From positions 1 to 64,000 of the forward strand of contig NZ_CAIPNF010000242.1 of the NCBI RefSeq assembly GCF_903866365.1: DNA of 64,000 bases, read 5' to 3'. Source of the DNA: an uncultured Thiocystis sp. (GTDB lineage Bacteria > Pseudomonadota > Gammaproteobacteria > Chromatiales > Chromatiaceae). A program made the position numbers and the translations under genes. Shown one piece after another: positions 30,077 through 36,831 of this stretch; within the stretch, counting starts at the first letter, position 1; the number at the start of each line of letters is the position of its first letter. The notes beneath the pieces were generated by a model. The model had not been told where the DNA came from. It saw only the letters and a program-made list of their open reading frames with translations, and made no database searches.

Positions 30077-31477
30077 ATGCCTTTCGTACCCCATACCGAC
30101 GACGACATCGCCGCGATGCTCGCGACCATTGGCGTCGACGCCATCGACGACCTGTTCGACGAGATCCCGGCCGAATTGCGGATCGGCGAACTGACCGCCA
30201 TCCCCACCGGCATGGCGGAGATGGACATCGCCCGTCTGATGCACGCCCGTGCTCGGGCGGACGGTCAGCCGGTCTGCTTCATCGGCGCGGGCGCCTACGA
30301 TCATCATATCCCGGCCGCGGTCTGGCAGATCGCGGCCCGCGGCGAGTTCTACAGCGCCTACACGCCCTATCAGGCGGAGGCGAGTCAGGGCACGCTCCAG
30401 GTGCTCTATGAATTCCAGTCGATGATGACCGCGCTCACCGGGCTGGATGTCTCCAATGCCTCGCTCTATGACGGCGCCTCGGCGTTGGCCGAGGCGGTGC
30501 TGATGGCGGTGCGCGCCAACCGTAAGACCAAATCGAACAAGGTCATGGTCCCGCGCGCGCTTCATCCGGCCTACCGGCGCACGGTGCATGCCATCGTTGC
30601 GGCACAGGGGATCGAGCTGGTTGAAATCCCCTTCGACCTCAAGGGCGGCCAGACGACGGTCGAGCAACTGGACGCGGTCGCCGGCAGCGATGAATTCGCC
30701 GCCGTGGTCGTCAACCAACCCAATGTGTTCGGCGTGCTCGAAGACGTGGATGCGCTGACCGAGTGGGCGCATGCCCGCAACGCACTGGCCATCGCCGTCG
30801 TCAATCCGATCGCGCTGGCCCTGCTGTCGCCGCCCGGCGACTGGGGCGGCACCGGCGCGGATATCGCCTGCGGCGAGGCCCAACCCCTGGGGATGCCGCT
30901 GTCCTCGGGCGGACCCTATGCCGGCTTTCTCTGCTGCAAGCAGGAATTCGTGCGCCAGTTACCCGGTCGCATCGCAGGACGGACGCTGGATCTGGACGGC
31001 AAGCCCGGTTTCACCCTGACCCTGCAGGCGCGCGAGCAGCATATCCGCCGCGGCAAGGCGACCTCCAACATCTGCACCAATCAGGGTCTGCTGGTCACGG
31101 CGGCAACCATCCACCTGGCGCTGCTGGGGGCCGAGGGTCTGGAACGGGTGGCGTCCGCCTGCCATGCCAACACCCAACGGCTCGCCGCCCTGCTGTGCGA
31201 AATCCCCGGCATCGTGCCACTGTTCGACCAGCCCATCTTTCACGAACAGGCGCTGCGCCTGCCCGCGCCGACCGCCGATTTGCTGCGCTCGCTGGCGGCG
31301 CACAACGTGCTTGGTGGTTTCGATCTGAGTCGGGACTATCCCGAATTGGGCCAAGCCCTCTTGATTTGCGCGACCGAACTCCGCACGAAAGAGGAGATGC
31401 GCGGCTATGCCGACAAGCTGGCGCGCATCGTCGCCACCCGGACCCAGGCAAAATGCCCGGTCGAACCGAAATTCTGA
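30077..31477 (+). CDS. gcvPA: Glycine dehydrogenase (decarboxylating) subunit 1
   Basis: A 466-residue alpha subunit of the split glycine decarboxylase ([20 protein letters not shown] start; [12 protein letters not shown] and [10 protein letters not shown] blocks). It forms an alpha2beta2 P protein with GcvPB that decarboxylates glycine and loads the methylamine onto lipoyl-GcvH. The PLP lysine is on the other subunit, as expected. Unusually, its partner gcvPB is not adjacent: tpx and a two-gene AT-rich module lie between. Confidence 0.95.
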
Positions 31478-31499: not shown

Positions 31500-31997
31500 A
31501 TGGCCCAAACCGCACTCCAAGGCAACCCCGTCAACCTCAGCGGCGACCTGCCCGCCATCGGCAGCACGGCGCCCGACTTCAAACTCGTCGACAAGGATCT
31601 GGCCGACAAGACGCTGGCCGATTTCGCCGGCAAGAAGAAGCTGCTGAACATCGTGCCCAGTCTGGATACCCCGGTCTGCGCGACCTCGACCAAAAAGTTC
31701 AACGCCGCCATCTCCGGGAAGGCCGATGCCGTCGCGCTGGTGATCTCGGCCGATCTGCCCTTCGCGATGGGCCGTTTCTGCGGCGCCGAGGGGATCGAGA
31801 ACGTCATCGGTCTGTCGATGATGCGCTCGCGCAACTTCGCCAAGGACTATGGCGTGCTGATCGAAGACGGCCCGCTCGCCGGCATCACCGCCCGCGCGGT
31901 CGTCGTTCTGGATGCGGACAACACCGTGCTCTACACCCAACTGGTGCCAGAGATTACTGAGGAACCGGATTACGACGCGGCGCTGGCTGTACTTTAA
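31500..31997 (+). CDS. tpx: Thiol peroxidase (Tpx, atypical 2-Cys peroxiredoxin)
   Basis: A 165-residue peroxiredoxin with the peroxidatic cysteine C60 in [12 protein letters not shown] and the resolving cysteine C94 in GRFCGAEG, matching E. coli Tpx (C61/C95). It reduces lipid and other hydroperoxides with thioredoxin. The ATG at 31500 has GGAG nine bases upstream. It sits 22 bp after gcvPA inside the gcv operon and is followed by a hairpin with a T-run that may end transcription. Confidence 0.95.
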
Positions 31998-32054
31998 AAG
32001 TTTATCGTCAAGATACTTTTGATACATCGAAGCGCAATGCAGCTTTGTGAGTCG

Positions 32055-32100
32055 CGAATCAGTTTCTCAAGTCTTAACGCTTGGGAAACCGATTCGTTTT
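32055..32100 (+). terminator. Hairpin after tpx, probable terminator
   Basis: Arms CGAATC-a-GTTTC-t-CAAG (32055-32071) and CTTG-g-GAAAC-c-GATTCG (32080-32096) pair with one mismatch and one T-G pair and are followed by TTTTCAT. It could end the gcv/tpx transcript or act in the leader of the methyltransferase gene. Confidence 0.65.
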
Positions 32101-32145
32101 CATAACCAAATGACACGAAAATATTGAGAGAGTTTTGAGACAGTA

Positions 32146-34311
32146 ATGCCCGAGATCACAATTACAGAACAGCTAAAAGAAATTCGAGCACAGACCGGGC
32201 TCAGTTACCAGGAACTTGCTCAACTTCTTGGTACTTCACTAGTGGCGGTCGATCATTGGGAACGTAATATCAGCGATCCATCTTTTTCGCAAAAAGAAAA
32301 TATCGCGAAAGTTCTTTCGGACATCAAAAAAAACCAAGGAATTCGTATACCAGAAGTTGTCCTGCAAAACGGATCTTTCGCATCGCGCGGTTCAACAAGG
32401 GCTGCGATGCGTCTTCATCAACCGGATCTTTTTACGACAGAATCTAGGATTCGTTTTAACTTATCTCCATTACAACCCATTCTCGCGCGTCTCAAATCCG
32501 GAATTTTTTTTGACCAGGGTGAGAGCACTCTGGAAACCATGCTTGATCGTCATGCGATTCCGGCAAGTACCCCGGATCAGGCGACCATCATGAATATTTC
32601 CGCAGGGAAAAATACTTACACCTACGACGCTCATACCTATCACACCAAGGTTCCTCCGCAGGGAATTCTCGCGTTCCTGCGTCACTACCTCCCGGAAGAC
32701 GGCCTTGTTCTCGATCCGTTTGCGGGAAGCGGAATGACGGGCGTTGCCGCGCGAATCGCAGGAATGGATGTCATTCTGAACGAACTGTCCCCCGCCGCCT
32801 GTTTTATCGCTCGCAATTTTACGACATCAGTTTCTCCGGAAGATTTCAGCTCATCTATCAAGGAAGTTATGAGGGCCGTTGCCGATGTCAGAAATCGGCT
32901 CTATAGCACAACGTGTCGAGAATGCGGGAAAGAGACGGAGATACTCTATACGGTCTGGTCATACCGCGTTCTCTGTACGCATTGTCAGTCTGAATTTGTT
33001 TTATGGAATCATTGCCGCCAATACGGCAAAACCGTTCGCGAACATAAAATTTTAAAAGAATTTCCTTGCCCGAATTGCAATAAAAAAATTAAAAAGCGCG
33101 AACTGTCACGCTCATCGGTCGAGCCCGTCCTCATCGGTTATAAATGCTGTAGCAAGCACCAAATCGAACACGCTCTCTCACACGAAGATATCAAAAAAAT
33201 TGAAGACATTAACTCGGGAGATTTTCTAGCCGAGCATTTTTATCCCACGAATAAGATCCCGGAAGGTGTCAACCTCAATCAACCCAGGCATCATGGATTG
33301 CTCGCCATCGATCAACTTTATACGAAAAGAAATCTATCGGCGATGAGTCAACTTTGGAAAGCAATTCATCGGATCGAAAATAACGATCTCGCCGCTGCCG
33401 CTGCCTTCGTTTTTACCTCGCTCTATCAAAGAGTGACTCGAATGTCCGAGTTTCGTTTTTGGGGTGGCAGCGGAAATACGGCAAGATTTAATGTCCCTTT
33501 TATTTTTAACGAAGCAAACGTTTTTGTGACTTTCGAGAGGAAGGCTGGAAATATTCTGGATCATCTTGAGACGACTGCCGTTCATTATAAAGGCACGCAA
33601 GCGGTGATCTGCCAGTCCGCGACGAATCTTGATTACCTTCCAGATAACTCCATCGATTTAATTTTTACCGACCCCCCATTTGGGGCTAATATTAATTACT
33701 CGGAAATGAATATTCTTTGGGAATCCTGGCTTGGAAATTTCACTGATACGACGCATGAAGCAATTATCAATCGCGCACAGGGAAAAAACATACAGGATTA
33801 CCAGGATCTGATGTGTCAAAGTCTGTCCGAATGTTTTCGGGTTTTACGTCCTGGCCATTGGATGCTGCTTGTTTTCATGAATTCATCCGGACAAGTGTGG
33901 GCTGCCCTCAAATCAGCGATAGAAAAATCCGGATTTATCATCAAAAAGATGGATATATTCGACAAGCAACACGGGACATTCAAACATTTTGTTAGCGATA
34001 ATACCGCCGGTTGCGATTTGGTTCTACATTGTCAAAAACCATTTAACGCCAAACAATCCGAAGATCGGGAAGAAATATCAAATTCTTCAGTGACAATCGC
34101 CGATTTTCTTGCAGGTAGAGACAGAGCGATTCCAATCACAAACTATCTACATGTCGTGCGAAGCGACGAGTTAGATTGGCGCAGACTTTATAGTGAGTGG
34201 CTTGTTTTTAGCATGCAGAAAAATCACGAACAGATTAGTTTTATAGAATTTAAAGACGCGGCAATGCGTTTTTTAGCAGCATTGCAAAACATCGTCAAGA
34301 ATTCAGAATAG
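32146..34311 (+). CDS. DNA methyltransferase with N-terminal XRE helix-turn-helix
   Basis: A 721-residue protein. Residues 5-60 form an XRE-type helix-turn-helix (LSYQELAQLLGTSLVAVDHWER). Motif I is DPFAGSGMTG (about 190-199) and motif IV is DPPF (about 509-512), an amino-methyltransferase layout. Between them are cysteine pairs (CRECGKE, CTHCQSE, CPNCNKK) forming zinc ribbons, as in DNA methylases of the type II/DUF1156-like group. The gene is clearly AT-richer than its neighbours. It lies 9 bp from the next gene and interrupts the gcv operon, which suggests a transferred restriction-modification-like module. Target sequence and N4/N6 class cannot be told. Confidence 0.85.
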   Translation: MPEITITEQLKEIRAQTGLSYQELAQLLGTSLVAVDHWERNISDPSFSQKENIAKVLSDIKKNQGIRIPEVVLQNGSFASRGSTRAAMRLHQPDLFTTESRIRFNLSPLQPILARLKSGIFFDQGESTLETMLDRHAIPASTPDQATIMNISAGKNTYTYDAHTYHTKVPPQGILAFLRHYLPEDGLVLDPFAGSGMTGVAARIAGMDVILNELSPAACFIARNFTTSVSPEDFSSSIKEVMRAVADVRNRLYSTTCRECGKETEILYTVWSYRVLCTHCQSEFVLWNHCRQYGKTVREHKILKEFPCPNCNKKIKKRELSRSSVEPVLIGYKCCSKHQIEHALSHEDIKKIEDINSGDFLAEHFYPTNKIPEGVNLNQPRHHGLLAIDQLYTKRNLSAMSQLWKAIHRIENNDLAAAAAFVFTSLYQRVTRMSEFRFWGGSGNTARFNVPFIFNEANVFVTFERKAGNILDHLETTAVHYKGTQAVICQSATNLDYLPDNSIDLIFTDPPFGANINYSEMNILWESWLGNFTDTTHEAIINRAQGKNIQDYQDLMCQSLSECFRVLRPGHWMLLVFMNSSGQVWAALKSAIEKSGFIIKKMDIFDKQHGTFKHFVSDNTAGCDLVLHCQKPFNAKQSEDREEISNSSVTIADFLAGRDRAIPITNYLHVVRSDELDWRRLYSEWLVFSMQKNHEQISFIEFKDAAMRFLAALQNIVKNSE

Positions 34312-34319
34312 GCGATTTC

Positions 34320-35342
34320 ATGCATACTCTCAAAGCATTTTCGGATTCTGAATTTAGTCATGCAAAACTATTGCTTGCAACCCAAGTTGCCAGCATGATG
34401 GGCCGCAAGTTTGAAGAAGACGACTGGAACAAAGTTTATTGCGCAGCCAAGAGAATACCGCATTCCGGCTGGAGCAACTTGAACATCGATGTGAATCATG
34501 GCGGTCTCGGCGTTGAACAGAAACTTCTTCGCGTATCCGGGCTTGGAGCACGACCGATCAAGTCAGTGTGTGGCACAACCATGATGCATCCCGCAGCGAC
34601 ACGTTCCATTCGTATCGACAACACAGAACAGGCCGCTGACGATACGATGCGCGATGTTTTCAGGCAATATACCGATTTAATTGAACTTAGAACGCAAAAA
34701 GTACGCGAACAAGCACCCGCTCATATTGAAACAGATATGCGACTGGGCTGGCTGTTATGGGAAGACTCATTGATGGAATTCCTTTACTTCGAGCAGCCAT
34801 GGGAGATTCCAGAACCTGATCGATATTATGCGGAGTGGAATGTCACACCTGCTAAGGGTGCCAGAAAAGCAAGCAAGAGTCTTTGGATCTACGAACGCGA
34901 CACCGACAAAAAACGCTATTCGGTGACGACCAGTGCCGGAATTAAAATTCAGCCTTATTTCGATGTACCGGCGCCGTCCGATGAGAATCTTTACTATTTC
35001 AGAGTTCAGAGTGAGCCGATCGACTACGACACCGTGAAGATATGGATATCGGGAAGCACGGCCCGCGCTTTACAGCGACTGCTTGGCGACCTGGACAAAG
35101 AAACTGTCAGCACGGCGATCATCCAGGCCGCCCAGTATGCAAAAGTCAGCGACGCACCCGCCGTCGAGGATATCGACTTTGCCAAACCCATCCTGATCAA
35201 CATGGCCGCGTTCCAGCGTTTCCAGTCGGCTTGGGATGGTGTCAGCGACGAACATCGTGCACAACTTTTCCTAGAGTCGCTTCACGAGCGGCCACCATCA
35301 TCATCGGACTCACAAGACAATCCTTCCACACCACACCTGTAA
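34320..35342 (+). CDS. Unknown protein paired with the DNA methyltransferase (possible restriction enzyme)
   Basis: A 340-residue soluble protein that I do not recognise. It starts 9 bp after the methyltransferase. Conserved-looking blocks are [23 protein letters not shown] (seen as GLGARPIKS and MMHPAATRS), an acidic stretch [20 protein letters not shown] and a C-terminal low-complexity tail ([12 protein letters not shown]). No clear PD-(D/E)XK or HNH motif is visible, so calling it an endonuclease rests on context only. The 5' part is AT-rich like the methyltransferase gene; the 3' part is nearer the host composition. It ends 13 bp before gcvPB. Confidence 0.6.
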
Positions 35343-35355
35343 CACTGAGACATCG

Positions 35356-36831
35356 ATGCTGATCCACGACCAATCCCGCCCCGGCCGCCGGGCGACCGCC
35401 CAGGCGCCGCTCAACCCGCCCGCGATAACCGACCTTCCCGAGGGGCTGCGCCGCCGCGCGCGGCCCGCGCTGCCGGAGGTCTCCGAGTTACAGGCGGTGC
35501 GTCACTACACCCGGCTGTCGCAGAAGAATTTCTCGATCGACACCCATTTCTACCCGCTGGGCTCCTGCACCATGAAGTACAACCCGCGGGCCTGTCACAG
35601 TCTGGCTTCGCTGCCGGGCTTCCTCGCCCGTCACCCGCTGGCGCCGGACAGCCACGGCCAGGGCGTACTGGCCTGTCTCCACGAGCTTCAGGAAATGCTC
35701 AAGGAGATTACCGGCATGCATGCGGTGTCACTCGCTCCCTCCGCTGGCGCGCAGGGCGAATTCGCCGGGGTCGCGATGATTCGCGCCTATCATCGGGCGC
35801 GCGGCGATCTGGCGCGCACCGAGATTCTGGTGCCGGATGCCGCGCATGGCACCAACCCCGCCTCGGCGGCGATGTGCGGTTTCAAGGTCCGCGAGATTCC
35901 CACCGGCACCGCTGGCGATGTCGATCTCGCGGCCCTGAACGCGGCGGTCGGCCCCCAGACCGCCGGCATCATGCTCACCAATCCAAGCACGGTCGGCGTC
36001 TTCGACCGGAATATCCAGGCCATCGCCCGCACGGTCCACGCCGCCGGCGGTCTGCTCTATTACGATGGGGCCAATCTCAACGCCATCCTCGGTAAGGTGC
36101 GGCCGGGCGACATGGGCTTCGATGTCATCCACATGAATCTGCACAAGACCTTCTCGACGCCGCACGGCGGCGGCGGTCCCGGCGCGGGTCCGGTGGGCGT
36201 CTCGCAGCGACTGGAGCCCTATCTGCCGGTCCCGCTGGTCGCTTTCGATGGGGACGACTACCGCTGGATGACGGAGGACGAACGACCCGACAGCATCGGC
36301 CGACTGACCGCGTTCGGCGGCAACATGGGCATCCTGCTGCGCGCCTATGTCTACGCCCGCATGCTGGGCCGCGAGGGCATGGGACGGGTCGCCGACTTCG
36401 CCACCCTGAACGCCAACTATCTGATGGCGCGTCTGAAGTCGGCCGGTTTCGAGGCCGCCTATCCGGAGCGTCGCGCCAGTCACGAGTTCATCGTCACGCT
36501 CAAGCGCGAGTCGAAAGAATTGGGCGTCAACGCCATGGACTTCGCCAAGCGTCTGCTCGATGACGGCTATCACGCCCCAACCACCTATTTCCCGCTGCTG
36601 GTGCCCGAGTGTCTGCTGATCGAGCCGACCGAGACCGAAACCAAGGAGGAACTGGATGGCTTCGTCGAGGCCATGATCGCGATCCGCCGCGAGGCGCTGG
36701 ACGACCCGGAGAAACTCAAGGGCGCGCCTTATCGCCTGCCGGTCCGTCGACTCGACGACGTGCGCGCGGCCCGTCTGCTCGATCTGGCCTGGAAACCCGA
36801 GGCAAACGAGATCCAAGATGGCCAACAATAA
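35356..36831 (+). CDS. gcvPB: Glycine dehydrogenase (decarboxylating) subunit 2
   Basis: A 491-residue beta subunit of the split P protein, with the PLP lysine in [16 protein letters not shown] and the N-terminal [19 protein letters not shown] block ([12 protein letters not shown] visible). It completes the glycine decarboxylase with GcvPA encoded 3.9 kb upstream. The ribosome-binding site is weak. With the methyltransferase module now in front of it, its expression may depend on readthrough or a new promoter. Confidence 0.95.

Follow-up and report, generated by a model that had tools for sequence, protein, structure and literature searches.

Within the glycine-cleavage operon of an uncultured Thiocystis sp., two adjacent genes very likely constitute a complete Type II-like restriction-modification (R-M) system that was acquired by horizontal transfer, as judged from sequence comparison. 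The first gene, which we call A, encodes a methyltransferase, and the predicted product of the second, B, is very probably the restriction enzyme that belongs to A. Both genes lie on the forward strand of the window, by which we mean the whole 64,000-nucleotide stretch of DNA that was analysed, with 8 bp between them. The module and its surroundings comprise the following features.

31500..31997, + strand: tpx (thiol peroxidase), the left flank of the insertion, ancestral between gcvPA and gcvPB
31998..35355, no strand assigned: the inserted segment, which takes the place of the tpx-gcvPB spacer (109-135 bp in the closest relatives)
32055..32096, no strand assigned: imperfect palindrome CGAATCAGTTTCTCAA-N10-TTGGGAAACCGATTCG with 16-bp arms, a candidate operator of A or the tpx terminator
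32146..34311, + strand: open reading frame of A, methyltransferase, 721 aa
34320..35342, + strand: open reading frame of B, predicted restriction endonuclease, 340 aa
35356..36831, + strand: gcvPB, the right flank, with native homology restarting at its ATG

An earlier note on this DNA had remarked on a sharp contrast in base composition between the two genes and their neighbours, and this contrast is clear: the GC content is 0.445 in A and 0.502 in B compared with 0.61-0.67 in seven neighbouring genes, and GC3 is 0.44 and 0.53 compared with 0.79-0.84. The 3.2-kb GC minimum of the window (0.456) is found at position 32001, whereas segments off the module have a mean of 0.619 (sd 0.031). The note had also described the module as splitting gcvPA from gcvPB by 3.9 kb. 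With the end of gcvPA at 31477 and the start of gcvPB at 35356, the distance itself (3.88 kb) is right, but the module accounts for only 3.36 kb of it and tpx was already there. In the majority of 29 relatives examined, tpx separates gcvPA from gcvPB and the module is absent; 94 of the 96 genomes sampled from the family yield a gcvPB match, and near relatives have the order gcvPA-tpx-gcvPB with a short tpx-gcvPB spacer. On this comparison, gcvPA-tpx-gcvPB is the ancestral order in the family, and tpx can be ruled out as part of the insertion because it sits between the two gcv genes in most near relatives.

Comparison with relatives, which the note had proposed as a check, gave the uninterrupted version of the locus. 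The site is empty in G1228 (L070) and G1231 (L071), the two genomes of the genus that are closest to the window, and an unrelated spacer of 109-135 bp leads from the tpx stop to the gcvPB start. The DNA identity of these genomes to the window is 91-93% on both flanks; it ends at the tpx stop (about 31990-31996) and restarts at 35356. Because both genomes align on either side and carry only this short stretch in between, the module must have entered the locus and replaced the tpx-gcvPB spacer. The relatives thus differ from the window in gene order as well as in composition, contrary to what the note had named as grounds for abandoning the idea, and the foreign composition together with the empty sites points to horizontal acquisition. 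Neither an integrase nor a transposase or tRNA was seen among the window ORFs and features adjoining the module, so that a transposon or integron at this locus was rejected. A 7-bp direct repeat, ACATCGA, occurs at 32024 and 35350; as a trace of insertion it is no more than suggestive, 7 bp being too short to count. The same spacer is occupied by other genes in two further genomes. In G779 (L032) it measures about 0.94 kb and holds two ORFs of 138 and 134 aa that by eye are TIR-domain-like, and in G775 (L016) it holds a low-GC ORF (0.50) whose 267-aa product resembles a membrane protein, so that the tpx-gcvPB spacer may be a repeated insertion point.

Homologues of B are rare in the family, where 3 of the 210 scanned genomes hold one. 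By sequence, B homologues were found in Magnetocorallium (L003), a gammaproteobacterial MAG (L004), Saprospiraceae (L005), Sphingomonas (L006) and a virus-like contig (L008), as well as on the Komagataeibacter xylinus plasmid pGX1 (L002), in phage Phosso (L007), in the same-genus genome G1229 and in the same-family genome G770. In the first five of these, B directly follows a homologue of A and the flanking genes are unrelated. The window and these five unrelated contexts therefore have the gene order and a spacing of 8 to -4 bp in common and nothing else; in three of the five, the coordinates place the A stop and the B start in a 4-base overlap. The trees of A and B have the same topology, with (window,(L003,L004)), (L006,L008) and L005. 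Searches for B in 369 genomes from the class, 398 from the phylum and 385 from the class to which the Sphingomonas genome belongs returned only the known copies, and a search of viral contigs returned only L008.

Several of these loci have surroundings of their own. Upstream of the Magnetocorallium copy, an attC-like sequence, TAACCAGTCGTTTGAGCGG...CCGCTCAACTCATTGTTAG, was recognised by eye (L003:3690-3825), and this copy may be an integron cassette. The virus-like contig (L008, 37-3312 and 9297-10340) has, by eye from the translations, portal-like and lysozyme-like ORFs on one side of the pair and, on its other side, an ORF for an Mrr-like nuclease, an arrangement like the cargo region of a prophage. 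In the Sinorhizobium jumbo phage Phosso, a solitary 266-aa B homologue lies between tRNA genes (L007:2005-2805) and is 35% identical to B, with the motif described below kept; no methyltransferase gene is annotated within the 5 kb shown around it. In the Saprospiraceae locus (L005:3971-5977), the A homologue has no helix-turn-helix (HTH) and reads TAPPF for TDPPF, a change of the catalytic D to A, while the B beside it looks intact. With APPF in place of DPPF the methyltransferase should be inactive there and, if the change is real, the neighbouring B is either guarded otherwise or inactive.

The loss of that catalytic aspartate, the apparently recent insertion and the rarity of B in the family would all suit a pair that is decaying or selfish baggage without present restriction activity in its host, which would still allow an R-M origin. 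We consider this unlikely, as both frames in the window are open with all catalytic motifs intact, and A and B have been kept paired at 54-72% identity across several phyla.

A functional link between the two genes is also indicated by an exchange of the methyltransferase. In G1229 and on the 5.5-kb plasmid pGX1 of K. xylinus, B directly follows a C5-cytosine methyltransferase gene. These two C5 enzymes share 54% identity, BLAST finds no match between them and A, and that of K. xylinus matches TIGR00675 dcm. The B of G1229 has an intact frame of 323 aa and 50% identity to the window B, and that of K. xylinus is split over two overlapping frames. We attempted to derive the target site from the C5 methyltransferase, but no close relative was found on plasmids, the best other one being 29% identical. 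Because the partners of B, across phyla, are two methyltransferases of unrelated mechanism and nothing else is conserved, we read B as an R-M endonuclease with a site that either mark would protect. The partner exchange is best explained by a nuclease that would tolerate either mark at its site, and few other functions would explain it.

The composition of the loci fits this reading. A dedicated methyltransferase stands beside the endonuclease gene in six A-B and two C5-B loci, and neither a translocase or helicase of Type I/III systems nor an extra subunit is present; only two genes recur, and their flanks are unrelated. The proposal that B is a new restriction enzyme guarded by the methylase is the best-supported reading, and its strongest support comes from the C5 partners, which the note could not have seen. 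Methyl-dependent cutting by B (Type IV, DpnI-like) was ruled out, since such an enzyme would attack DNA methylated by its own partner.

B has no Pfam, NCBIfam or PADLOC family and no sequence relative in the PDB; no non-defence family, which would have told against a defence role, was matched. Two parts can be distinguished in the protein.

B residues about 1-240: PD-(D/E)XK-like, with E32/E33, D57, E66 and K68
B residues about 238-322: predicted tandem ribbon-helix-helix (RHH)

The motif D57-x8-E66-x-K68 is invariant in all aligned homologues down to the 35%-identical phage protein, as are E32/E33, and D-x8-E-x-K is also visible in the B homologues of G1229, K. xylinus and G770. These residues conform to the (P)D-Xn-(D/E)-X-K motif of PD-(D/E)XK nucleases. 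An AlphaFold2 model of B (pLDDT 77, pTM 0.75) gave no significant match to the PDB with Foldseek. With VIA-align, where by the tool's own warning a Z below 8 may reflect chance or a common arrangement, the top row was 3ndh (Z 7.0 over 158 residues at 4.6 A), followed by SfiI (6.3), DpnI (5.5) and HincII and MvaI (both 4.2). We take 3ndh to be ThaI; the row itself reads 'restriction endonuclease'. A second, domain-only model, truncated to the nuclease domain, was poorer (pLDDT 61) and matched no better, although 3ndh again came first (Z 4.8) and DpnI fourth. The predicted structure of the first 240 residues of B is suggestively closest to ThaI, SfiI, DpnI, HincII and MvaI, with which B has the D...ExK motif in common; B has no detectable sequence similarity to these enzymes and adds a C-terminal domain. 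For SfiI, an active site of E55-D79-D100-K102 has been proposed (PMC548270), and the spacing from E to D is 24 residues in both SfiI (E55-D79) and B (E33-D57). Taken together, motif and model make a PD-(D/E)XK core in B likely.

The predicted C-terminal elements of B are a strand (238-243) and two helices (245-255, 260-273) followed by a second strand (289-294) and two further helices (295-304, 310-322), i.e., beta-alpha-alpha repeated twice. In VIA-align this part matched F-plasmid relaxosome chains, presumably TraY, with Z 6.5 and DndE with Z 4.8. Both TraY and DndE have been described as two-RHH proteins (PMC10853773). B differs from these proteins in that the predicted RHH part follows a nuclease-like domain, and no DndD/CxC ATPase is found near B. 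No RHH family of Pfam matched B, and the RHH-annotated BFVD rows were not significant; the one significant viral match to the model in BFVD was an uncharacterised 270-aa phage protein (E 1.4e-7). On the strength of the model, we favour a tandem RHH domain in B, with less confidence than the nuclease core.

Given this domain and the lone homologue in Phosso, B might be a DNA-binding or regulatory partner of the methyltransferase (an RHH regulator or specificity factor) without nuclease function, and the pair an epigenetic regulator or a solitary modification module. This is improbable, since the conserved half of B is the N-terminal 240 residues with the invariant D-x8-E-x-K, for which the closest structural rows are restriction enzymes, and the Phosso homologue ends at about residue 270 and keeps the motif. 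The restriction endonuclease remains the preferred reading of B.

The earlier note had described A as an HTH/zinc-ribbon DNA methyltransferase, which is borne out by Pfam matches to HTH_3 (E 1.5e-6) and N6_N4_Mtase (E 4.6e-18) and a weak match to a double zinc ribbon. Its domains are as follows.

A residues about 10-57: XRE HTH
A residues 154-200: motif X/I (DPFAGSGMTG)
A residues about 230-480: nested zinc target recognition domain (TRD)
A residues 509-512: motif IV, DPPF

The best PADLOC family of A is PglXI (E 1.9e-115). Aligned with BREX-3 BrxXI methyltransferases, A has in common with them YHTKVP, the motif-I region, DPPFGANI and, within the insert, a 4-Cys zinc motif, and its identity to BREX-type methyltransferases (BrxXI/PglXI and the BREX-related DUF1156 enzymes) is 28-31%. 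Like these enzymes, A runs from motif X-I through a nested TRD with a 4-Cys zinc motif to DPPF, but it has the N-terminal XRE HTH and no BREX partners, and its homologues form a clade of their own (support 1.00). With 721 aa compared with 923-950 aa, it ends about 200 residues before the BREX-3 enzymes. The nested-TRD architecture has been described for BrxXI, with a TRD insert reported to have no homologues outside BREX, and the last 280-300 residues or so of the BREX-3 methyltransferase form a triple-HTH region (PMC12839542); going by length and alignment, with no domain model applied, A is without that region. From its sequence, A is an HTH-bearing amino-methyltransferase with a nested zinc TRD that belongs to the BREX-3 BrxXI/PglXI lineage. 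Its product is probably N6-methyladenine, since DPPF is in keeping with methylation of adenine at N6, the reaction of BREX-3; N4-cytosine is also possible. On the Pseudarthrobacter plasmid pASPHE301 (L010:3968-7581), two tandem A-like methyltransferase genes are preceded by a small HTH gene and followed by a gene for an AAA ATPase; this may be a further use of the lineage outside BREX.

The same genome has a BREX type 3 locus on contig C332:6000-22000 (L060), which encodes PglXI (936 aa), BrxC (1250 aa), BrxF and a helicase-like ORF and includes an OLD/HEC-01A-like ATPase gene. Because this separate locus has its own PglXI, A is not the BREX methyltransferase of the genome. That the pair is a minimal BREX-related system with B as a new accessory of BREX-type, non-cleaving exclusion is highly improbable: A is closest to PglXI/BrxXI and has the same nested-TRD architecture (PMC12839542), but neither BrxC nor PglZ nor a helicase such as BrxHII lies beside the pair in the window or at the other loci, the genuine BREX-3 locus with PglXI, BrxC and BrxF is elsewhere, and the C5 methyltransferases that B has as its other partners are not linked to BREX. 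BREX membership in the strict sense is ruled out by the missing partners and triple-HTH region.

Among known R-M systems, the Type II systems SsoII and Ecl18kI resemble A-B in consisting of two genes, a dedicated methyltransferase with an N-terminal HTH and an adjacent endonuclease, and in being mobile. The methyltransferases of SsoII and Ecl18kI are C5-cytosine enzymes, whereas A is of the amino-methyltransferase type and has a nested TRD, and the endonucleases of the two systems come from families other than that of B.

In the R-M system that we propose, A would methylate one exocyclic amino group (probably N6-adenine) at a site read by the zinc-containing nested TRD, and the PD-(D/E)XK-type domain of B (D57, E66 and K68, with E32/E33) would cut DNA with an unmarked site, probably aided in DNA binding by the C-terminal tandem RHH domain. 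Host DNA would be shielded by A, and unmodified incoming DNA would be cut. To balance methylase and endonuclease, the N-terminal HTH of A would probably act on the upstream palindrome and repress the promoter of A. Such repression by a methyltransferase with an N-terminal HTH of its own gene is documented in R-M systems (PMC3874152). The arms of the palindrome at 32055-32096 are complementary at 14 of 16 positions, which was equalled in 1 of 500 dinucleotide shuffles, and its inner part scores terminator-like; a conserved operator palindrome was not found upstream of the A homologues. Because the palindrome is not common to the homologues and is terminator-like, we infer autoregulation of A only provisionally.

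If B cuts DNA, an endonuclease family absent from Pfam, NCBIfam and PADLOC would be gained, and one and the same sequence should be protected by the A-type and the C5-type methyltransferases through marks on different bases. A methyltransferase of BREX-3 type, with a recognition insert for which no homologues outside BREX had been reported (PMC12839542), would also be placed in a simple restriction system of two genes. We see about an even chance that B represents a new family of Type II endonucleases, built of a PD-(D/E)XK domain and a tandem-RHH reader and paired with BREX-lineage and C5 methyltransferases for the same site, and that BREX-3 methyltransferases and R-M systems have exchanged parts.
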